Under the pieces are notes generated by a model, which ran no database searches, was not told the DNA's origin, and was given only the letters and a program-made list of their open reading frames with translations. This document shows, piece after piece, positions 4,025 through 64,000 of a stretch of 64,000 nucleotides of DNA (the first letter of the stretch is position 1; each line of letters starts with the position of its first letter). A program made the position numbers and the translations under genes. Origin of the DNA: an uncultured Oscillospiraceae bacterium (GTDB lineage Bacteria > Bacillota > Clostridia > Oscillospirales > Oscillospiraceae); the NCBI GenBank assembly GCA_947626315.1, contig CANQRQ010000001.1:62001-126000 (forward strand). Direction: 5' to 3'.

Positions 4025-5140
4025 TCAGCCTCTGAGGGCCTCCACGCTCGTCAGGAATTCGTCTACGATCTCGTCGCCCAGCGCCCCGCGCAGATACTCC
4101 TCGCAGGCAGGGCCGTAAGCGTTGTGCCAGTCGGCCAGTTCTTCCTCCGTGGGATAGTAGATGCTCATGCCCGCGTCAAGGAAGGTCTGCGCGCCGGACT
4201 CGGTAATGGCGTCCACAACCTCCCGGGCAAGGCCGGTGCAGTATTCGTTCGCATCCAGAATGATCTGCTGGTAGTCCGCCGGCAGGCTGTTGAAGAAGCT
4301 GGAGCTCATATAGTAGATGTTGACGCTGGGGCTGTGGCCGTCCATGACCATGTACTTGTGCACTTCATAGGTGCCGTCCTGGAGGATGTTGGTGATCGTG
4401 TTCTCATGACCGTCGATCACGCCGTTCTGCATGGCCGTATAGACCTCGGAGCCCGCCATCACAACAGGGCTGGCGCTCAGGGACTCCACCATGACGGTAT
4501 AGATATCGCTGCCAAGAACACGGAAGATCATGCCGGCCGCGTCATCCTTGGTCTTGAGTTCCTTTTTGACGGAGGTAAAATTCCGCAGACCCTTGGAGGC
4601 GCCGCCCAGGACCTTGATGCCGGAGGAAGCCTCCTGCGCGTCGAACATCTCGCGGGCAAAGTCGCTGTCAATGATGGCGTTTACCTCATCGGAGTTGTTA
4701 AAAGCGCCCGGCATAAGGAAAACCTGCGCCTTCGGCTCGAAGTTGCTGAGCAGGGACAGGTCGTAGATGCCCATCTCCACGGTGCCGGCCGCGATGGCCG
4801 TGATAACCTCATTTTCCGTCCCCAGAGAGGAGGAGGGATAGAGCTCCACGGTTATGCCGCCGTCCGTGGCATCCTCCACATACTCCTTGAACGTCTCCGC
4901 GTACATGATTTCCGCTGACTCGGTTCTGTCCAGTCCGCCGGGAGCATAACCGATCTTGATGGTGTAGGCCGCCGCGCCTTCATCCGCCGGGGCCTCGGCC
5001 GGGGCTTCGGTGGCGGGCGCCGCCTCTTCCGCGGGGGCTTCAGCGGCGGGCGCGGAGCTGCTGCCGCCGCAGCCGGCCAGTGCGCCGGCCAGCATCAGCA
5101 CCATTAACGCGAGAGCCAGAAGTCTTTTGCTGTTTTTCAT
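4025..5140 (-). CDS. dctP: TRAP solute-binding lipoprotein (DctP)
   Basis: The product is 371 aa with a lipoprotein signal peptide: a positively charged start, a hydrophobic core and a lipobox LAGC with the modified Cys at residue 24. An Ala/Pro/Glu-rich linker of about 35 residues tethers the binding domain outside the membrane. The DctP fold shows as SSSLGTENEVITAIAAGTVE, the RNFTSVKKELKT region, and PVVMAGSEVYTAMQNGVIDG, where the conserved Gly-Val-Ile-Asp-Gly motif lies. The protein delivers solute to DctQM. The Arg that usually salt-bridges the substrate carboxylate is probably in the IFRVLGSD segment. It is transcribed from the aldolase promoter and needs no separate start. Confidence 0.95.
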   Translation of the reverse strand: MKNSKRLLALALMVLMLAGALAGCGGSSSAPAAEAPAEEAAPATEAPAEAPADEGAAAYTIKIGYAPGGLDRTESAEIMYAETFKEYVEDATDGGITVELYPSSSLGTENEVITAIAAGTVEMGIYDLSLLSNFEPKAQVFLMPGAFNNSDEVNAIIDSDFAREMFDAQEASSGIKVLGGASKGLRNFTSVKKELKTKDDAAGMIFRVLGSDIYTVMVESLSASPVVMAGSEVYTAMQNGVIDGHENTITNILQDGTYEVHKYMVMDGHSPSVNIYYMSSSFFNSLPADYQQIILDANEYCTGLAREVVDAITESGAQTFLDAGMSIYYPTEEELADWHNAYGPACEEYLRGALGDEIVDEFLTSVEALRG

Positions 5141-24814: not shown

Positions 24815-24907
24815 GGAGGGTTACCGAAGCGGTCACAACGGGGCGGTCTTGAAAACCGTTAGGGCTGGAATACGCCCACAGGGGTTCGAATCCCTTACCC
24901 TCCGCCA
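24815..24907 (+). tRNA. tRNA-Ser(TGA), CCA encoded
   Basis: The acceptor arms GGAGGGT and ACCCTCC pair fully. The anticodon arm GCGGT-CTTGAAA-ACCGT puts TGA at the anticodon, there is a long serine-type variable arm, and the T-loop is TTCGAAT. Discriminator G is followed by genomic CCA at 24905-24907. Its 3' end CTCCGCCAT (24900-24908) recurs at 25704-25712 on the far side of the following element. Confidence 0.95.
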
Positions 24908-24908
24908 T

Positions 24909-24941
24909 GCAAAACCCCAATGCTTCGCATTGGGGTTTTGC
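24909..24941 (+). terminator. Perfect hairpin directly after tRNA-Ser
   Basis: A 15-bp perfect stem, GCAAAACCCCAATGC with loop TTC, begins one base after the tRNA CCA. The descending arm ends GGGGTTTTGC. It could stop tRNA transcription and also forms the left edge of the structured element. Confidence 0.6.
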
Positions 24942-25340
24942 AACGAAATCCGTCCTGCGGACGGGTGAAATCCCGCTGACGCGGGATGAAATCGCTTCGC
25001 GGTGAAATCCTGCTTCGCAGGATGCAGGTGACAGAAGGCTAACCAAAGCCGCTTCCCTTGTGCTCTGGGGGCAGGAACTCCCTGTGAAGTGCGAAGCAGT
25101 TTCTGGCGAGCAGATTTTTTCTCAGGCTAGGAAAAGCCCGCAGGAAATACTTTGTGTATTTTCAAGGGCTTTGACACAGCATGAGGGAAAATCTGCCGTC
25201 AGAAACCGGCTTGGATTAGCCTTTTGTCACCTAAAGGACGGATTTCATTTCATCGGCGCTTCAGCGCCGATTTCACCAAGGGCGCAAGCCCTTGATTTCA
25301 CCGTGCCAGGGGCACGATTTCACTTTCGCAGGTGAGGAAT
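24942..25340 (+). repeat. Palindromic structured leader: hairpin arrays around a 207-nt imperfect inverted repeat
   Basis: The left side has four short hairpins (24950-24964, 24970-24987, a 3-bp CGC/GCG one near 24993, 25007-25023) joined by TGAAATC linkers. The right side has three (25252-25271, 25278-25293, 25302-25316) joined by GATTTCAC, the reverse complement. Between them a 26-nt arm at 25026-25051 pairs with 25207-25232 (three mismatches). Inside that, GTTTCTGgCG at 25099 pairs with the arm ending at 25206. The whole can fold as one long rod. The 91-codon ORF over it is not convincing as a gene. The stretch ends at the AGGTGAGG ribosome site of the next gene. Confidence 0.8.
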
Positions 25341-47913: not shown

Positions 47914-48008
47914 GTGGCAGCGGAAGCGGAAACCGCACCGCACATCGCTGTTTCGTCCGTGGACAACTTCCCATCCCACGGCACTTAACGCGCGGCTTCC
48001 TACTCTGT
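47914..48008 (-). promoter_or_regulatory. Tetrahydrofolate (THF) riboswitch
   Basis: The minus-strand RNA has the known THF aptamer landmarks in order: GAGTAG, GCGTTAAGTG, GGGATGGGAAGTTGTCC, ACGAA and GCGGTGCGG, with the expected pairing of CCGTGG/CCACGG. It lies between folD and folT and controls folT and the 5-FCL gene. Confidence 0.9.
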
Positions 48009-48052
48009 CTGATAACAACCCTACTATATTAAACGCCCTGAAAGAGCGTATC

Positions 48053-55056: not shown

Positions 55057-56598
55057 TCAATAGAGGAGCGGGTCGTTCCAGGAAAAGGCGTAGCTTTCCA
55101 GGGCGTAGTTGCCGAACTGCCGCCGCAAAAGCGCATAGCGGGGGACAAAATCGCCGTTCTCGTCAAAGCGCCAGCCGCCCATGGTGGGGTCATAGGTGGT
55201 GGTGTTGATCTCGCAGTCCGGGGCCAGCTTCTGCATGTGGGCAATCTGGCTTTCGGGTACCGGGTCCAGGCAGCCGATCCACAGCCGCTCCAGCTGGGGA
55301 AGGTTGTAGAGAGGGGAGATATCGTCCAGATCGTAGAGATAGCAGATGTTCAGGTGCTTCAGCTCCTTGAGCCCTGCCAGGGGCGTCAGGTCCGACAGAC
55401 TCGTGGTCTGAAGCTCCAGATACTCCAGGTGCGGGCAGTTTGCCAGGGGGGAGGCGTCGCTCCAGTCGTTCATGGCCAGCACTGCCACCCGCAGCTCCGG
55501 CATGGAGGAGACAAAGGAGATGTCTGAAATGACCACGTTGTGCCCCAGATCCAGATAGCGCACATCCGTGCAGCAGCTGAGGGCCTCCGCATCGTCATCG
55601 TCCACGTTGCCGCCCTGGCCGGGCATAGAGGCCAGCAGCCGCTTCGTATCCGTGCGGACGCTGTAGTGATCGGCGATCCAGACCCGCCAGACCACCTTTA
55701 CCCGGGGCAGCGCGTCCCGCAGGGCCAGCATGTCCCGGTTGGAAATGCCGCAGGAGTCCATCTCCAGGCGGCGGAGCTTGGGCATGCACTGGGCGGCCTG
55801 CCGCACTGCCTCGCCCCGGTCGTCCATGGGGATATGGTTCAGATCCATGGTCCTGTCTGTGAGGGAGAAGGCCTTGCCGAAGAGGGTAAAGGCGTACTGA
55901 AATTCCGTCTCCGGCCGGGCGGCCTCCATGGCGGTGATGTCCTCCCAGACAAAATGCCCCAGGTTTTCATCGCTGCCCAGATCGACAGAGCGGAGCTTGC
56001 GCATGACCGGCAGGTAGCGGAGCAGCTCCGGGGCGTCCGCGTGTCCCCGGCCGCTCAGGTCCAGGGTCTCCGTATCCAGGGAGAGCTCCCGGCCAAAGAG
56101 CCGGAAGCGGTAATCAAAGCGGAGGCGGGGATAGGCGCTGAGAAAGGCCAGCACCTGCTCAGGTGTCAGCCCACCGGCGGCGTCCCCCAGATCCACGCTC
56201 TCCAGCGCCGGCAGGCAGGCCAGCAGGGGCAGCGCGTCCTCCGCCAGCGCCGGGTCCAGGCCGGAGAGGTCCAGCTGCGTGACAGAATTGTCCACGACGG
56301 AGCCGTCCGGCAGAGTCACGGTGTAGCGGAGCTCCTTCTCCGGATGGGTCTGGGCCCAGGAGGACAGGGCGCTGTAGCCGGAGCTGCCGCTGAGGTCCAG
56401 CTGCCGCAGAAGCGGAAAACGGTCCAGCAGAGGCAGATCCTCCGACTCCAGGACCGCCGTCAGGCTGACGGCGTCCGTCCGTACCCAGCCGATGGAGAGC
56501 CGGATCATATCCTCGCAGGAGGCGGACAGCATACCGCTCAGCAGGACCGCCAGAGCGAAGCCCAGTACAGGCCGCCAGGAAAAACGGGAATGAGCCAT
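55057..56598 (-). CDS. Leucine-rich-repeat surface protein 1 (third gene of trio)
   Basis: The 513-aa product has an N-terminal membrane or signal helix (VLGFALAVLLSGMLSASC, a possible but weak lipobox). Leu-rich repeats without a strict register follow, such as VRYLDLGHNVVISDISFVSSMPELRVAVLAMN, CPHLEYLELQTTSLSDLTPLAGLKELKHLNI and ISPLYNLPQLERLWIG. A Trp-rich middle (VKVVWRVWIADHYSVRTD) and an end WNDPLLY are shared with both neighbours. It is exported and probably an adhesin or receptor; no sortase motif is seen. ATG at 56598 follows AGGAGG. Partner unknown. Confidence 0.88.
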   Translation of the reverse strand: MAHSRFSWRPVLGFALAVLLSGMLSASCEDMIRLSIGWVRTDAVSLTAVLESEDLPLLDRFPLLRQLDLSGSSGYSALSSWAQTHPEKELRYTVTLPDGSVVDNSVTQLDLSGLDPALAEDALPLLACLPALESVDLGDAAGGLTPEQVLAFLSAYPRLRFDYRFRLFGRELSLDTETLDLSGRGHADAPELLRYLPVMRKLRSVDLGSDENLGHFVWEDITAMEAARPETEFQYAFTLFGKAFSLTDRTMDLNHIPMDDRGEAVRQAAQCMPKLRRLEMDSCGISNRDMLALRDALPRVKVVWRVWIADHYSVRTDTKRLLASMPGQGGNVDDDDAEALSCCTDVRYLDLGHNVVISDISFVSSMPELRVAVLAMNDWSDASPLANCPHLEYLELQTTSLSDLTPLAGLKELKHLNICYLYDLDDISPLYNLPQLERLWIGCLDPVPESQIAHMQKLAPDCEINTTTYDPTMGGWRFDENGDFVPRYALLRRQFGNYALESYAFSWNDPLLY

Positions 56599-56664
56599 AG
56601 CTAGCCTCCTTTCATACAGGCGCCGCGCCTGTGTTTGCTCTCATTTGGCGCGGCGGAAACGCTC

Positions 56665-58242
56665 TCAGGCAGCCGGAGGCTCTGCGGGCAGAGGAGGCTT
56701 CGTGCCGCAGAGGGGATCGTTCCAGTAGTAGGAATAGGCGCCCATCTGCGCCGCGTAATTGAACTGCTCGGTCAGCAGCTTATAGCGGGGATCCAGCTGG
56801 GCATAGCCGAACTCGTCATGCCCCAGATATCGCCAGCCGCCCTCCGTGGGGTCGATGGTGGTGGTGTTGATCACACAGTTGGGGGCGATTTTCTGCATCT
56901 CCTCCACCTGCTCGGGGGGGACCGGCGTATACATGCCGATCCAGAGCCGCTCCAGCTGGGGCAGCTCATAGAGGGGGCTCAGATCGTGGAGGGAGAAGCT
57001 GTAGCAGATGTTCAGATGGCGCAGATTCTTGAGAGTGGAGAGGGGACTCAGATCGCTGAACGCGGCGGTCTGAATCTCCAGATATTCCAGCTTCGGGCAG
57101 CTTGCCAGGGGGCTGACGTCCTTCCAGCGGGCCATAGCCAGGATGGCCACCTCCAGGTCCGGCATGTACCGGACAAAGTCAATGGAATTCATGTATGTAT
57201 TGTGCCCCAGGTCCAGATATTTGACCTTGGTGCAGTATTTGAGACACTCGGTGTTCTTCCCGGTGAGCTCTCCGCCCAGGCCGGGGTTGGAGGCCAGGAT
57301 CCGCTCCACATTGGTGCGCACGCTGTAGTTGTCTCCGAACCAGATGCGCCAGATGACCTCCGTATCGGGCAGCGCGTCCCGGATGGCGGCCATGCTCTCG
57401 TCAGAGACGCCGCAGGAATCCATGTCCAGGGTCTCCAGATGGGGCATGCAGGAGGCGATCTGTTTGACCAGGACTCCCTCGTCGTCAATGGGGATGAGCC
57501 GCAGATCCATGCTGGTGTCGGCCAGGGTAAAGCTCTTGCCGTAGAGGGTGAAGCTGTAGGCCAGCTCCGCCTCCGGGCAGGCCTCATGGATGGCGCTGAT
57601 ATCGGCCCAGTCCAGATGCTTTTCCGCCTCGTCGCTCCCCAACTCCACCCTCCTCAGGCCGGTCAGCATGGGCAGGCAGGGCAGCAGAGGCTCCACATCG
57701 CTGTGGCTGAGGCCGGAGAGGTCCAGGGAAGCGGTCTGCTGATCCAGCGTCTGCCCCCTAAAGGAAAAGCTGAAGCGGAAATCCAGCTCGGGATAGGCGG
57801 CCAGACAGCTCTGCGCCGCCTCCGGGCTGAGGAGACTGCCCAGGTCCACCGTTTCCAGCGCCGGCAGCCAGGCCAGCAGAGGCAGGGCCTCCTCCAGGGC
57901 GGCTGCGTCCATGCCGGACAGGTCCAGCTGGGTGGCCGTGTTTTCGGCGAGGGAGCCGTCCGGCAGGGGCACGGTGTAGCGCAGGGCCACCTGCGGGTGG
58001 GCCTCCGCCCAGGCCAGGATCTCCTCATAGCAGCTGCTGCCGCTGAAGTCCGCGGACTGGAGGGCGGTAAAGCCGTCCAGCAGGGGCAGATCCTCCGGGC
58101 TTACGACTGCGGTGAGCTGTACCGTGTCGGCTGGGTAATCGCCGGAAGAGAGACTGACTTTCTTCGCCCCGCAGCCCCAGAGGGGCAGGACGCAGAGAAG
58201 CAGCAGAAGAACGATCAAGGATTTTTTGCGGAAAGAGCGCAT
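56665..58242 (-). CDS. Leucine-rich-repeat lipoprotein 2 (middle gene of trio)
   Basis: The 525-aa product starts MRSFRKKSLIVLLLLLCVLP and has the clear lipobox LWGC, so Cys24 is the lipidated residue. The body repeats the plan of its neighbours: EVIWRIWFGDNYSVRTNVERILAS, VKYLDLGHNTYMNSIDFVRYMPDLEVAILAMA, CPKLEYLEIQTAAFSDLSPLSTL, and YELPQLERLWIG, ending SYYWNDPLCG plus a short Pro-rich tail. I use ATG 58242, behind GGAGG, rather than the 15-codon extension in the track. It is likely anchored to the outer face of the cell membrane. Confidence 0.9.
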   Translation of the reverse strand: MRSFRKKSLIVLLLLLCVLPLWGCGAKKVSLSSGDYPADTVQLTAVVSPEDLPLLDGFTALQSADFSGSSCYEEILAWAEAHPQVALRYTVPLPDGSLAENTATQLDLSGMDAAALEEALPLLAWLPALETVDLGSLLSPEAAQSCLAAYPELDFRFSFSFRGQTLDQQTASLDLSGLSHSDVEPLLPCLPMLTGLRRVELGSDEAEKHLDWADISAIHEACPEAELAYSFTLYGKSFTLADTSMDLRLIPIDDEGVLVKQIASCMPHLETLDMDSCGVSDESMAAIRDALPDTEVIWRIWFGDNYSVRTNVERILASNPGLGGELTGKNTECLKYCTKVKYLDLGHNTYMNSIDFVRYMPDLEVAILAMARWKDVSPLASCPKLEYLEIQTAAFSDLSPLSTLKNLRHLNICYSFSLHDLSPLYELPQLERLWIGMYTPVPPEQVEEMQKIAPNCVINTTTIDPTEGGWRYLGHDEFGYAQLDPRYKLLTEQFNYAAQMGAYSYYWNDPLCGTKPPLPAEPPAA

Positions 58243-58283
58243 AAAACTGCCTCCAAACGAAAAGTTCTGAAACAAGCCGGGGA

Positions 58284-59939
58284 TCAATGGGGCTCGTACA
58301 GGGGGTCCAGCCAGGTGAAGGAGTAATCCTCCGTGTCATAGCCGAACTGCTCCCGCAAGAGCTCGTAGCGGGGATGGAGAACTTCCTGAAGCCAGCCGGT
58401 CTCCGCGTAGTGCAGCAGGCTCAGCTCCGTATAGCCGGCGATGCGCCAGTGCCCGGCGGTGGGGTCATACACCTCGGTGTTGATTTCGCAGTTGGGCGCC
58501 GCGGCCTGCATCTCCGCCACCTGCTCGGCGGGTACCGGGGTAATGCAGCCGATCCAGAGCCGCTCCATCTCCGTCAGCCCGTAGAGGGGCGAGATATCCG
58601 TGACGTTTTCGCAGTTGCAGATGTTCAGATGCCGCAGCTCCGTCAGCCCGGAGAGAGGCGACAGGTCGGAGATGGTGGTGCTGTTCAGCTCCAGATACTC
58701 CAGGTGCGGGCAGTTGGCCAGAGGGGACAGGTCCCCGATGGGGTTCATGGCGATGACCAGAACCTCCAGGTTGGGCATGTAATTGACAAAGGAGAGATCG
58801 GTAATGACCTCGTTGTGGCCCAGATCCAGATATTTCACATCCGTGCAGTATTTGAGCACCGCGGTGTCCTCGTCATAGACGATGCCGCCCTTGGAGGGCT
58901 TGGAGGCCAGGATCTTGATCACATCGGTGCGGACGCTGTAATGGTCCCCGAACCAGATGCGCCAGACCACCTTGATATTGGGGAAATCGTCCCGGATGGC
59001 GGCCATGTCCTCGTTGGAGACGCCGCAGAAGTCCATATCCAGATAGACGCAGTTTTGCATATAGGGCAGGATGCTGCGCACGGCGGCCCCGCCGTCGTCC
59101 ATGGTGATGTGGTTGAAATCCAGGCTCTCGTCCAGGGTGTTGAGGCTCCTGCCGAAGAGACTGAAGCTGTAGGAGAAATCGGTGTTCGGGCAGGCGGCCT
59201 GCAAGGTGCCGATATCCTCCCAGCTGAGGCTGTTGACGCCCTCGCCCCCCAGATTCACCGTCCGCAGCTTGCTCATGCAGCTCAGGTAATCCGCGGCGGC
59301 CGCAGTCTCCTCATGGCTCATGGCGGACAGATCCAGCTCCTCGGCCGCCAGACTGACGGTCTGCCCGGCCAGGGAGAAGGAAAAGCTCAGATCCGCCTCC
59401 GGCGCGGCCTCCCGGAGCAGGACCAGGTCTGCCCCCGTCAGAGAGGCACCGGCCTCCCCGCTGCCCAGATCGATGCTCTTGAGCTCCGGCAGATACGCCA
59501 GCAGCCCGGCAGCCTCCGCCGCCTGGGCGCTGTCCAGCCCCGGGAGCTCCAGCGCCTCCTGGTCCCACTGGGCGATGACGCCGCCGGGGAATTCCACCGT
59601 GTAGCGGCAGTCGACAGAGGGGTGCGCCTCGATCCAGGGGATAAACTCCTCATAGCAGGTGCTTCCGCTGAAATCCACCGACTGAAGGGCGGTGAAGCCG
59701 TTCAGCAGCTCCGCCTCCCCCGGCTGGAGCACCAGGGTCAGGTCCGTCGTGTCCGCGGGAAAGCTTCCTGCGGCGAAGGTGATCTCCGGCGTCCCCAGAA
59801 GGGGCAGGCCGGTCACGCCGCCACCGCCGTCCGCGCTGACGGAGGGCCAGGAATAGCAGCAGAGAATAAACACCCCCGCGTACAGCAGACTCACCAGGGC
59901 CTTTATGATATTCAAGAGGATTCTTCCGAATTTCTTCAT
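58284..59939 (-). CDS. Leucine-rich-repeat surface protein 3 (first gene of trio)
   Basis: The 551-aa product has a signal anchor (LLNIIKALVSLLYAGVFILCCYSW) with tandem Cys but no clean lipobox. The LRR region has VKYLDLGHNEVITDLSFVNYMPNLEVLVIAMN, CPHLEYLELNSTTISDLSPLSGLTELRHLNICNC and YGLTEMERLWIG, and it ends FTWLDPLYE. ATG at 59939 follows GGGAGG; the track's start at 59981 lies in the promoter. It leads the operon. The three paralogues differ most at the N-terminus and tail, as if the export mode had diverged while the LRR face was kept. Confidence 0.88.
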   Translation of the reverse strand: MKKFGRILLNIIKALVSLLYAGVFILCCYSWPSVSADGGGGVTGLPLLGTPEITFAAGSFPADTTDLTLVLQPGEAELLNGFTALQSVDFSGSTCYEEFIPWIEAHPSVDCRYTVEFPGGVIAQWDQEALELPGLDSAQAAEAAGLLAYLPELKSIDLGSGEAGASLTGADLVLLREAAPEADLSFSFSLAGQTVSLAAEELDLSAMSHEETAAAADYLSCMSKLRTVNLGGEGVNSLSWEDIGTLQAACPNTDFSYSFSLFGRSLNTLDESLDFNHITMDDGGAAVRSILPYMQNCVYLDMDFCGVSNEDMAAIRDDFPNIKVVWRIWFGDHYSVRTDVIKILASKPSKGGIVYDEDTAVLKYCTDVKYLDLGHNEVITDLSFVNYMPNLEVLVIAMNPIGDLSPLANCPHLEYLELNSTTISDLSPLSGLTELRHLNICNCENVTDISPLYGLTEMERLWIGCITPVPAEQVAEMQAAAPNCEINTEVYDPTAGHWRIAGYTELSLLHYAETGWLQEVLHPRYELLREQFGYDTEDYSFTWLDPLYEPH

Positions 59940-59971
59940 CTTGCGCCTCCCGAAGACTGCACTTGTTTTAT

Positions 59972-60000
59972 AGTATAGCATCGGCGCCTGGGTTTTGCAA
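59972..60000 (-). promoter_or_regulatory. Promoter of the LRR operon
   Basis: TTGCAA (59995-60000), 17 bp, TATACT (59972-59977) on the minus strand, 33 bp before the first LRR ATG. Confidence 0.85.
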
Positions 60001-60195: not shown

Positions 60196-60858
60196 ATGTT
60201 CAACGATTTGCGAGATACCATCAACGCCTATAAAGCCAGGGACCCGGCTGCCCGCAGCTCTCTGGAGGTCCTTCTGCTGTACCCTGGGGTGAAGGCCGTC
60301 CGGAGCTACCGGAAGGCCCACTGGCTCCACGAGCACGGCTGCAAATTTCTGGCCCGGATGATTTCCCAGCGCAGCCGCCGGGTTACGGGGATCGAGATCC
60401 ACCCCGGCGCCAAAATCGGCAAGCGGCTGGTCATTGACCACGGCATGGGCATCGTCATCGGCGAGACCTCCGAGGTCGGGGACGACTGCCTGATCTATCA
60501 CGGGGTCACCCTGGGCGGCACCGGCAAGGACGTGGGCAAGCGGCACCCCACCATTGGGGACAACGTGCTCATCGGCACCGGCGCCAAGGTCCTGGGGCCC
60601 ATCACCATCGGCAGCAACAGCCGCGTCGCCGCCAACTCCGTGGTGCTGACAGACATTCCGGAGGACAGCACCGCCGTGGGCGTCCCGGCCAAGGTGGTCA
60701 AGATCGCCGGCAAGCGGACGAACTACGTGCGCGAGGTGGACCAGGTGAACGTGACCGATCCGGTCTGGACGGAGCTGGCCGCTCTGCGTAAGGAGCTGAA
60801 GGACCTGAAGGCCGCGCAGCCGCCGGAGAGCGGCGCAGCGGGGCCGGACGCGCCGTAA
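60196..60858 (+). CDS. cysE: Serine O-acetyltransferase
   Basis: The 220-aa product is CysE of the short bacterial type. A helical N-terminus is followed by left-handed beta-helix hexapeptides ([46 protein letters not shown]), with the catalytic His82 in the DHG motif. [21 protein letters not shown] closes the helix. It acetylates serine to O-acetylserine, the first step to cysteine. No cysK follows; a downstream tRNA-modifying gene is co-transcribed instead. GGGAG precedes the ATG. Confidence 0.96.
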
Positions 60859-60865
60859 CGGGGCT

Positions 60866-61816
60866 ATGGACGGCGTGCAGACCGGGCGCTTTGCCCCCAG
60901 TCCCTCGGGCTATCTGCATATGGGCAATCTTCTCTCCATGCTGCTGGCATGGCTGGACAGCCGCGCCCTGAACGGGCGGATGCTCTTTCGCCTGGAGGAC
61001 CTGGACCCTGCCCGCTCTAAGCCGGCGTATGCCGCCGCCCTGGCGGAGGATTTCCGCTGGCTGGGGCTGGACTGGGAGGCGGGCTGGCCCGACCCGGCCT
61101 ATGCCCAGAGCAGCCGGACCCGCTATTACGAGGCGGCCTTTGCCGCCCTGCAGGAGAAAGGCCTGGTCTACCCCTGCTGGTGCAGCCGGGCCCAGCGCCT
61201 GGCGGCGGCCTCCGCGCCCCATCCGGGGGAAGCGGAGGCTGACCCGGGCTGTCCCTGCGCCTGGCTCTCCCGGCGGCAGCGGGCCGCCTTGGAGGCCGGG
61301 GGACGCAGCCCCGCCTGGAAGATCCGGGTCCCGGACCGGACGGTGGCGGTGGAGGACGCCCATTACGGCGTCTTCAGCCAGAACCTGGCCCGGGAGACGG
61401 GGGATTTCATCATCCGCCGGGCGGACGGGGTCTTTGCCTACCAGCTGGCGGTGAGCGTGGACGACCTGCTCATGGGCGTCACCCGGGTGGTGCGGGGCAG
61501 GGACCTGCTCAGCTCCGCCCCCAGGCAGCGCTGGCTGATCGAGACGCTGGGCGGGCAGGCCCCGGTCTACGCCCACGGCCCGCTGCTCACCGAAGGCGCG
61601 GACAAGCTCTCCAAGCGGCAGGGCGCTCTGAGCACCCAGGTCCTGCGGCAGACGGTCCGCCCCGAGGCGCTGACCGGACGGCTGGCCTGGCTCTGCGGCC
61701 TGACGGAGACGGACGAGCCCTTGAGCCCCCGGGAGCTGATCCCCCTCTTTTCCTGGGACAGGGTGAAGCGGGAGGATATTCCTTTAGAGTTCGGCAAATT
61801 CTCCGAATTCCCCTGA
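60866..61816 (+). CDS. gluQ: Glutamyl-Q tRNA(Asp) synthetase
   Basis: The 316-aa product matches GluQRS, a truncated glutamyl-tRNA synthetase without an anticodon domain, which attaches Glu to queuosine-34 of tRNA-Asp. The HIGH-like motif is PSPSGYLHMGN (residues 11-21). The zinc-binding Cys are CWC and CPC near residues 105-130, and the KMSKS-like motif is KLSKRQG. It starts 7 bp after cysE. The insert between the zinc Cys is normal for the family. It implies that tRNA queuosine is made or salvaged in this organism. Confidence 0.94.
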   Translation: MDGVQTGRFAPSPSGYLHMGNLLSMLLAWLDSRALNGRMLFRLEDLDPARSKPAYAAALAEDFRWLGLDWEAGWPDPAYAQSSRTRYYEAAFAALQEKGLVYPCWCSRAQRLAAASAPHPGEAEADPGCPCAWLSRRQRAALEAGGRSPAWKIRVPDRTVAVEDAHYGVFSQNLARETGDFIIRRADGVFAYQLAVSVDDLLMGVTRVVRGRDLLSSAPRQRWLIETLGGQAPVYAHGPLLTEGADKLSKRQGALSTQVLRQTVRPEALTGRLAWLCGLTETDEPLSPRELIPLFSWDRVKREDIPLEFGKFSEFP

Positions 61817-61883: not shown

Positions 61884-61912
61884 TTGACAGGGGCGGGGGA
61901 ATGTGGTACGCT
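61884..61912 (+). promoter_or_regulatory. Promoter ahead of lysine riboswitch
   Basis: TTGACA (61884-61889), 17 bp, TACGCT (61907-61912). A copy of AAAGCGCTAA, the 10-mer in the LacI-operon promoter, lies at 61929-61938, just after the expected start of transcription. Confidence 0.65.
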
Positions 61913-61955
61913 CATGATGCGCTGAATTAAAGCGCTAAATTTCATACAGGTTTGG

Positions 61956-62122
61956 CAATAGAGGCGCGGAGCTTAAGAGTACCTGCCCGGAGGGCGCGGA
62001 GCCCGGGGAACGGCGGGGAAAGGAAGTTTCGCCGAAACCTTCAGCCTTTCCGCGGGCTGATGCAGTTGGGGTGCAGTTGAACAGGCTGCACACTCTCACC
62101 GGATTCGGTGGAGGAGCTATTG
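61956..62122 (+). promoter_or_regulatory. Lysine riboswitch (L-box)
   Basis: The RNA has the L-box landmarks in order: ATAGAGGCGCGGAGCTTAAG (loop E/kink region), AGAGTA, GGGGAA, AAAGGAAGTTTCGCCGAAAC, and GGAGGAGCTATTG closing with the initial CAATA as P1. Arms between them pair as expected for the five-helix junction. An intrinsic terminator follows at 62142-62174, so high lysine should shut off the downstream symporter. Confidence 0.88.
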
Positions 62123-62141
62123 TTTCACGAACGAAACTTGT

Positions 62142-62174
62142 GGAGCAGTGGTTACCGGCCGCTGCTCCTTTTTT
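62142..62174 (+). terminator. Riboswitch-controlled terminator
   Basis: GGAGCAGTGG and CCGCTGCTCC pair (one T-G) around TTACCGG, followed by TTTTTTCG. It precedes the symporter ribosome site by about 45 bp. Confidence 0.9.
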
Positions 62175-62234
62175 CGTTTCTGGCAAGGCCGACCGACGTT
62201 TTCCTTGTTGTCGATCCGGAAAAGGAGAAACACC

Positions 62235-63737
62235 ATGATCGACTTTCTGAACTGGCTTGACGGGGTCCTGTGGGGCTTGCCCCTGATCGTTTTGATGATC
62301 GCCACGGGGCTGTATTTCACCATCCGTTCCGGCTTCTTCCAGTTCCGCTACTTCGGCTGGACCATGAAGCGCACGGCGGGGCAGATCTTTGCCGGCAAGA
62401 CCGCCCGGGACGACGCCGCCGAAAAGGGCATGCTCAGCCCCTTTGAGGCCATCGCCACCGCCATCGGCGGCACGGTGGGCTTCGGCAACATTGCCGGCGT
62501 GGCCACGGCCGTGGCCGCCGGCGGGCCGGGCGCCATCTTCTGGATGTGGGCCACCGCCTGCCTGGGCCTGATCCTCAAGCAGGTGGAGGTTACCCTGGGC
62601 TGCCACTACCGGCGCACGGAGGCCAACGGGGACTCCTACGGCGGCCCCACCTATTACATGGAGTACGGCCTTGGCAAAGAGCGGCATTGGGGCAAGCTCT
62701 GGCTGATCCCCGCCATCATCTTCGGCCTGGGCATCTTCTCCACCTTCTTCATCACCTCCTCCACCCTGACCGCCGCCCAGGTGGTCTCCGGGGCCTTCCG
62801 GCTGCCTGACCTGCACATCGGCGGCCTGACCGTGGAGGGCGTCATCCTGGCGGGTCTGTTGCTGTGCGTGCTGACCTATATGGTCACCAGCGGCGGCACC
62901 CGGAAGATCGCCGCGCTGTTTTCCAAGCTGGTGCCCTTCATGAGCGCCCTGTACATCCTCATGGGCCTGGCCATGATCGTGGCCAACCTGACCCGCGTCC
63001 CCGGCGCCTTCGCCTCCATCTTCCACGACGCCTTCACCGGCACCGCCGCCATGGGCGGCTTCGCCGGCGCCACGGTGGCCCAGATCGTCCAGACCGGTAT
63101 GGCCCGGGCCGTGTACTCCAACGAGGCCGGCTGGGGCACCTCCCCCATGGTCCACTCCTCCGCCAAGACCCGGCACCCGGTGGAGCAGGGGCTCTGGGGC
63201 TCCTTCGAGGTTTTCTTTGACACCTTCATCGTCTGCTCCATCACCGGCCTGTCCGTGATCCTCAGCGGCAACTGGACCAACGGCACCAACGGCGGCGATC
63301 TGGCCCTCAGCGCCTTCGCCTCCAGCTTCGGCGTGGTGGGCAGCGTGCTGCTGGCCGTCATTATGGTGATCTTCACCGTCACCACCTCCGGCGGCTGGTT
63401 CACCTATTACCTGTCCCTGCTGGAGCACCTGTGCGCCAACAACGACCTGCTCAAGAAGATCGTCATGAAGTTCTTCTACGCCCTCCGGGCCCTGCCCGGC
63501 CTGCTCTGGACCATCTACCTGGTCAAGACCAACAACCAGGGCTTCATCTGGACGGTGGTGGACATCACCTCCGCCATCCCCACCTTTGTGAACGTGGCGG
63601 TGATCCTGATCCTGTCCGGCGAATACTTCAAGCTTTTGAAGGATTACAAGGCCCGCTACCTGCACAAGGGCACCCTGAACGAGAACGTCAGCCTCTTCTA
63701 TGAGGACCAGGCGGCCGTCGCTTCCTCCGCAAAGTAA
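62235..63737 (+). CDS. AGCS-family Na+/amino-acid symporter, probably for lysine by regulation
   Basis: The 500-aa product is an alanine/glycine:cation symporter family protein. FEAIATAIGGTVGFGNIAGVATAVAAGGPGAIFWMW, where GNI..GV is the Na+ site and GPGAxFWMW the family hallmark, is followed by TYYMEYGLGK, ARAVYSNEAGWGTSPMVHSSA and about eleven helices. I start at ATG 62235 behind AAGGAG; the track's earlier start is inside the terminator. The family usually carries Ala, Gly or Gln, but the lysine riboswitch upstream predicts lysine or a related cation. That is inference from regulation. Confidence 0.92.
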   Translation: MIDFLNWLDGVLWGLPLIVLMIATGLYFTIRSGFFQFRYFGWTMKRTAGQIFAGKTARDDAAEKGMLSPFEAIATAIGGTVGFGNIAGVATAVAAGGPGAIFWMWATACLGLILKQVEVTLGCHYRRTEANGDSYGGPTYYMEYGLGKERHWGKLWLIPAIIFGLGIFSTFFITSSTLTAAQVVSGAFRLPDLHIGGLTVEGVILAGLLLCVLTYMVTSGGTRKIAALFSKLVPFMSALYILMGLAMIVANLTRVPGAFASIFHDAFTGTAAMGGFAGATVAQIVQTGMARAVYSNEAGWGTSPMVHSSAKTRHPVEQGLWGSFEVFFDTFIVCSITGLSVILSGNWTNGTNGGDLALSAFASSFGVVGSVLLAVIMVIFTVTTSGGWFTYYLSLLEHLCANNDLLKKIVMKFFYALRALPGLLWTIYLVKTNNQGFIWTVVDITSAIPTFVNVAVILILSGEYFKLLKDYKARYLHKGTLNENVSLFYEDQAAVASSAK

Positions 63738-63747
63738 AATAAAACCT

Positions 63748-63774
63748 CCGGCAGCCGCAAAAAGCGGCTGCCGG
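63748..63774 (+). terminator. Hairpin between symporter and amidohydrolase
   Basis: A perfect 11-bp stem (CCGGCAGCCGC/GCGGCTGCCGG) with loop AAAAA, without a T-run. A partial terminator or mRNA-stabilising hairpin. Confidence 0.5.
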
Positions 63775-63798
63775 TCAGCATCATTAAAGGAGAAGGAT

Positions 63799-64000
63799 AT
63801 GAAAACTCTGTATTATAACGGCGCGGTCTATACCGGCGCCCTGCCCCTGGTCCAGGCCTTTGTGGTGGAGGACGGGCTCTTTACCTTCGCCGGGTCCGAC
63901 GCCGAGGCCGCGGCCTTTGCCGGACCGGAGGCGGAGCGGGTGGACCTGGCAGGCCGCTTTGTCTGTTACGGCTTTACCGACAGCCATATGCACCTGCTCT
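63799..64000 (+). CDS. Amidohydrolase (YtcJ-like), 3' end outside window
   Basis: Only 67 codons are in the window. ATG at 63799 follows AAAGGAGAAGG. The translation shows the N-terminal composite beta domain (LYYNGAVYTGALPLVQAFVVEDG) and the first metal-binding motif as TDSHMHLL, the DxHxH of amidohydrolase family 3. Members hydrolyse amides or imines of unknown structure. It probably shares the riboswitch-controlled transcript with the symporter, so it may act on the imported amino compound. Confidence 0.82.
   Translation, partial: MKTLYYNGAVYTGALPLVQAFVVEDGLFTFAGSDAEAAAFAGPEAERVDLAGRFVCYGFTDSHMHLL

Follow-up and report, generated by a model that had tools for sequence, protein, structure and literature searches.

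A lysine riboswitch precedes an AGCS transporter gene and its amidohydrolase neighbour in gut Bacillota: a probable lysine-acquisition operon

Lysine riboswitches (L-boxes) usually govern lysC, dapA-type genes or transporters such as LysP, YvsH and LysW, as stated in the initial annotation of the locus described here and in agreement with a published compilation (PMC5584792, Table 2), whose transporters are LysP/GabP, LysW (NhaC), YvsH and LysXY; the AGCS family is absent from it. In Clostridioides difficile, an L-box unit couples the transporter YfcC to an M20D amidohydrolase (PMC11477304). The few characterised AGCS proteins transport small neutral amino acids, and control of AGCS genes by glycine riboswitches is known, reported as OFF switches in Streptococcus pyogenes and Vibrio cholerae (PMC5829553, PMC11477304). 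On the enzymatic side, epsilon-lysine acylases, which convert N-epsilon-acetyl-lysine to lysine, are classified in the YtcJ-like amidohydrolase family (PMC10699109), and the known members are distinguished by having no carboxylated lysine (PMC11511702). Control of an AGCS gene by a lysine riboswitch was not found in the open-licence papers that we searched, including the PMC5584792 list, and the AGCS gene reported here falls outside the published L-box transporter families (lysP/gabP, lysW, yvsH, lysXY).

The leader and the two genes

The locus lies at the end of a 64,000-nucleotide stretch of DNA from an uncultured Oscillospiraceae bacterium, the whole of which we refer to as the window. The lysine riboswitch aptamer occupies positions 61951-62127 on the + strand (Infernal, RF00168; 99.2 bits against a gathering score of 30, E 3.7e-25), the match spans the full length of the model (positions 1-182), and the L-box core agrees with the consensus at 45 of its 49 most conserved positions. 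The initial annotation had recognised the element from its landmarks and begun it at 61956; the element is real, but that start is 5 nt late relative to the Infernal start at 61951. It was the only riboswitch found upstream of the AGCS gene in the window, with no glycine aptamer (RF00504) there. A possible sigma-70-type promoter, read from the sequence, may lie on the same strand at 61884-61912, consisting of TTGACA (61884-61889), a 17-nt spacer and TACGCT (61907-61912); only three of the six bases of TACGCT match the second hexamer, so that a consensus scan did not list it.

The aptamer is followed by an intrinsic terminator at 62142-62174 (+), made of a 12-pair stem with a loop of 3 (hairpin 62142-62168, approximately -21 to -25 kcal/mol) and then TTTTTT, although the terminator scan is weak when taken alone, with 4 such sites found against a mean of 2.1 in the shuffled region. 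For the nascent transcript that still lacks the terminator's 3' arm, RNAfold predicted an alternative antiterminator helix (62113-62156, +) of 18 pairs and -19.8 kcal/mol, in which the 3' strand of P1, GCUAUUG (62116-62122), can pair with nucleotides 62146-62152 in the 5' arm of the terminator; the same pairing is present in most usable leaders of relatives. From this layout we infer an OFF switch: lysine binding stabilises P1, whose 3' strand is also the 5' strand of the antiterminator, and lysine is therefore predicted to induce termination.

Downstream of the terminator, a ribosome-binding site read as AAAGGAG (62221-62227, +) precedes an ATG at 62235, which opens the AGCS transporter gene (62235-63737, +; 500 aa). 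The protein matched PF01235 (Pfam, E 1.6e-100), TIGR00835 (NCBIfam, 344 bits against a cut-off of 273) and, in a PDB sequence search, the solved AgcS structure 6cse (E 5.9e-58), and with these results the original description of an L-box and terminator ahead of a clear AGCS gene holds. Its AlphaFold model (mean pLDDT 82.9) matched 6cse with TM scores of 0.78/0.90 at 31% identity, ahead of every other structure by some thirteen powers of ten in E-value, and the model thus indicates a LeuT-type fold as in AgcS.

A YtcJ-like amidohydrolase gene follows on the same strand from 63799 and runs past the window end at 64000; its full frame of 533 aa (contig positions 125799-127397) starts 61 bases after the AGCS gene, behind its own AAAGGAG, also read from the sequence (63786-63792, +). 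The protein matched PF07969 (E 5.4e-100), its metal ligands (HxH, H, H, D: H63, H65, H340, H372 and D435) are conserved in 40 homologues, the lysine K288 of the motif LKMLGDG is invariant among homologues, and its start, as read from the sequence, has no signal peptide. The fold best matches 3igh and 3icj, two uncharacterised archaeal hydrolases, and these closest solved structures gave no clue to the reaction. Between the two genes lies a perfect inverted repeat of 11 pairs with a loop of 5 (63748-63774), followed by a T-run on the - strand only, which may perhaps act in mRNA stability or partial attenuation; in many relatives there is no space for such a repeat, as the two genes overlap.

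Several other features of the window were recorded. A strong tetrahydrofolate riboswitch (RF01831, 82.5 bits) lies at 47916-48009 (-), and a Gut-1 RNA (RF01706, 60.4 bits) at 24941-25013 (+), some 40 nt beyond a tRNA (24815-24904); the Gut-1 family was described from gut metagenomes and its function is unknown. Three neighbouring related genes at 55057-59981 (-) encode repeat proteins of about 510-565 aa, leucine-rich-repeat-like by eye, with signal-peptide-like starts. Just upstream of the L-box operon, at 60196-61816, an unusual pair consists of cysE (serine acetyltransferase) and, 8 nt on, a GluQRS-like gene.

Distribution of the arrangement and its riboswitch classes

Within the genus, a close relative of the transporter was found in only 3 of 60 other genomes (94, 74 and 74% identity), all three with an L-box directly before the gene. 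Other L-boxes of the genus sit before ABC importers, NhaC-type carriers, lysA, dapA and some amidohydrolases. Among these, the L-box with the highest score in the genus sample (120 bits; L005, G012:C27) precedes a PF07969/PF01979 amidohydrolase of 457 aa, and the stretch fetched there contains no transporter; another precedes an M20 amidohydrolase alone (L077, G049:C24), and a third precedes a YfcC-type carrier and an M20 amidohydrolase (L087, G057:C50), a second design of L-box transporter plus hydrolase. Two more lie directly before peptide-type solute-binding proteins (L030, which matches PF00496, and L013, 67% identical to L030), suggesting a lysine-controlled uptake of peptides.

When 85,000 species genomes were scanned with the AGCS protein as query, 45 loci formed a discrete group at no less than 68% identity, and the next matches came only at 41% or lower. 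An Rfam search placed an L-box in 38 of these 45, on the same strand and 81-219 nt before the start codon. Of the others, L139 yielded its L-box at a laxer threshold, the earlier miss reflecting a stricter search setting; L141 carries a variant aptamer missed by cmscan and recovered by alignment; L112 shows the 3' end of an L-box at the contig edge; and L153 is an AGCS gene split at a contig end, the 5' half of which, together with the L-box, is L231. With L120 and L145 left out as not judgeable, the L-box lies directly upstream of the AGCS gene in 42 of 43 evaluable loci of the branch. The sole true exception is L136, where the gene and a terminator are present and no L-box was found. One locus (L132) has two same-strand L-boxes (1115-1286 and 4716-4896) 3.4 kb apart, the second of which precedes the AGCS gene. 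Nearly all of the relatives are metagenome-assembled genomes, among which binning has probably gone wrong in places (as in 'Dehalococcoidales', L136), and the loci, which span Oscillospiraceae, Lachnospiraceae, Erysipelotrichaceae and others as named in their records, are non-independent observations.

The 40 branch aptamers aligned had a mean column identity of 65%, and 24 of 37 predicted pairs had changed on both sides in a compensatory manner. Of 38 leaders from relatives, 36 have a terminator after the aptamer, and the pairing between P1 and the terminator arm occurs in 32 of the 36 usable leaders, compared with 31% after shuffling. Because there are about two L-boxes per genome, an L-box would be expected this close upstream by chance in less than 1 in 1000 cases per genome.

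The amidohydrolase is the next downstream gene, at 50-93% identity, in all 42 loci with enough downstream sequence, which bears out its earlier tentative naming as a partner of the transporter. In 15 of 38 loci its start codon shares 4 nt with the stop of the AGCS gene, a sign of probable translational coupling. Comparison of the loci thus shows L-box, AGCS gene and amidohydrolase gene kept together, as read from their sequences, across several bacterial families. Four class-level homologues of the amidohydrolase outside the operon (43-53% identity; L189-L192) had neither an AGCS gene nor an L-box within the approximately 1.5 kb fetched around each.

The more distant AGCS genes, at 41% identity or lower, present a different picture, with a glycine riboswitch before 23 of 30 (10/15 and 13/15 in two sets); no L-box was found at any of these 30, and the amidohydrolase was not found beside the glycine-riboswitch AGCS genes, whose products presumably take up an unconjugated amino acid. 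In a maximum-likelihood tree, 42 L-box-branch proteins were monophyletic and split from the other AGCS proteins with support of 99/99. The same division is present in the genome of the window, which has two further AGCS genes, one of them (L233) with a glycine riboswitch (RF00504). With the L-box in only one monophyletic branch and the glycine riboswitch in others, riboswitch class, lysine or glycine, labels the branch of the transporter, and does so also between two paralogs of this one genome.

Substrate of the transporter and role of the hydrolase

The L-box branch also differs from its relatives in the putative pocket region. Relative to AgcS of Methanococcus maripaludis, six substitutions are fixed or nearly fixed in the branch (T78 to F83, G164 to F172, Q170 to A180, L279 to W300, S371 to F389 and G374 to Y392). 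Five of them bring in aromatics (F83, F172, W300, F389 and Y392) that do not vary within the branch, where AgcS mostly has small residues, while the Gln at MmAgcS position 170 is invariant in the glycine-switched branch and replaced by Ala here. No branch-specific acidic residue, the expected mark for the amine of the lysine side chain, was found in the transmembrane core. Acidic residues common to all AGCS proteins could nevertheless bind a cationic side chain.

Taken together, the data make it very probable that the operon serves the acquisition of lysine, either free or as a conjugate. The initial annotation had gone further and proposed an AGCS branch specific for lysine; a separate, L-box-controlled branch stands (42 of 43 loci, support 99/99), while lysine itself as the substrate does not follow, for sequence alone cannot tell free lysine from a lysine conjugate. 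The strict coupling to the hydrolase and the absent branch-specific acidic residue tip the balance slightly towards a conjugate, and with epsilon-lysine acylases known among YtcJ-like enzymes, import of a conjugate of the N-acyl-lysine type followed by intracellular hydrolysis seems at least as likely as import of free lysine. The separate L-box unit of YfcC and M20D, in C. difficile and at L087, also speaks for a transporter working with a hydrolase. A conjugate with a neutral side chain would need the hydrolase to yield lysine and would remain close to the neutral zwitterions of the AGCS family. In the specific route that we propose, to which we give an evenly balanced confidence, plentiful lysine would bind the aptamer, hold P1, block the antiterminator and end transcription before the AGCS gene, whereas under scarce lysine both proteins would be made; the transporter, with its reshaped pocket, would then carry in, by cation symport, a lysine conjugate that is zwitterionic and has an uncharged side chain, most likely an N-epsilon-acyl-lysine such as acetyl-lysine, and the cytoplasmic amidohydrolase would cleave its amide bond and release lysine. 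More broadly, and with a confidence a little short of even, we suggest that this AGCS branch has moved away from small neutral amino acids and now takes lysine conjugates, either N-acyl-lysines or amides that contain lysine. Together with a dedicated cytoplasmic amidohydrolase and the L-box OFF switch, it would make up a system by which gut Bacillota salvage lysine from acylated forms present in diet, host or microbial products.

Some observations count against the conjugate route. K288 of LKMLGDG is invariant, unlike in the known epsilon-lysine acylases (EC 3.5.1.17), which have no carboxylated lysine; on this ground we rejected membership of that subfamily, and the amidohydrolase would be at most a cousin of these enzymes. 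One branch member, L136, lacks the L-box. In many relatives, moreover, one other L-box at most was found, and it controls dapA; the AGCS protein would then be the sole L-box transporter, which would fit a plain lysine importer equally well. Such an importer, with the branch acting as a Na+ (or H+) symporter of free L-lysine and the hydrolase freeing lysine from other intracellular amides or serving some separate housekeeping function that lysine controls in the same way, is a serious if somewhat doubtful possibility. L-boxes before single transporters usually mark lysine importers (PMC5584792), glycine riboswitches precede AGCS relatives thought to carry free glycine, and the five invariant aromatics could form a cation-pi site. 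Import of free lysine nonetheless leaves the constant, often translationally coupled hydrolase unexplained and finds no branch-specific acidic residue to support it, and the genome already has an L-box-controlled LysXYZ-type ABC importer.

Other explanations fare less well. Transport of alanine, glycine or glutamine, with the L-box as an indirect control that senses, for example, amino-acid supply, would agree with the few characterised AGCS proteins, but riboswitch class follows the AGCS branch even between paralogs of one genome and at some positions of the putative pocket region each group is fixed for a different residue, so that we consider it very unlikely. An operon for lysine breakdown or export, switched on by lysine, has its precedent in some L-boxes that lie ahead of lysine fermentation genes, which they are thought to switch on (PMC5584792); here the shared strand of P1 and antiterminator should make lysine binding favour termination, and no lysine fermentation genes were found beside the gene pair across the 16 kb of sequence read. 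On this leader architecture we rejected a breakdown operon that lysine turns on, and we hold the breakdown or export reading highly improbable. Nothing apart from the single locus without an L-box speaks for an aptamer unrelated to its neighbours, present by chance or as a relic, and its retention in 42 of 43 loci from several bacterial families, with covariation, a terminator and a confined distance from the start codon, makes such an accident vanishingly improbable.

The operon offers a concrete, testable role for widespread genes that so far carry no more than the labels 'sodium:alanine symporter' and 'amidohydrolase', and it brings AGCS into the L-box regulon as a further transporter family. 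Riboswitch class, lysine or glycine, would serve as a natural substrate label within a single transporter family, opening AGCS specificity to sequence-guided mutagenesis, and should the conjugate route hold true, gut bacteria would have a way to lysine from acylated rather than free lysine.

Comparison with described systems

The operon resembles the published L-box units before lysP/gabP, lysW (NhaC), yvsH and lysXY in its aptamer, its attenuation logic and the transporter directly downstream, and the same genome holds the LysXYZ-type ABC version of such a unit; it differs from them in that its transporter belongs to the AGCS family and is always paired with an amidohydrolase. The AGCS genes behind glycine riboswitches in S. 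pyogenes, V. cholerae and C. difficile share the principle of an amino-acid riboswitch controlling an AGCS gene, but with another riboswitch class, another branch of the family (41% identity or lower) and no amidohydrolase partner. With AgcS of M. maripaludis (6cse/6csf) the transporter has family and fold in common, and the two differ at six positions (T78, G164, Q170, L279, S371 and G374 in AgcS). For the hydrolase, the closest described enzymes are SmELA, SamELA, SgELA and ScELA, YtcJ-like metal amidohydrolases that free lysine from N-epsilon-acetyl-lysine (PMC10699109, PMC11511702); these have no carboxylated lysine, whereas the amidohydrolase here appears to have one (K288), and neither paper describes a transporter or riboswitch that partners them. 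A parallel in overall design is the yfcC and M20D unit of C. difficile, seen also in a species of this genus (L087), in which an L-box likewise stands over a transporter and an amidohydrolase; both of its protein families are unrelated to AGCS and to the YtcJ-like enzymes, and the same design would thus have been reached separately.
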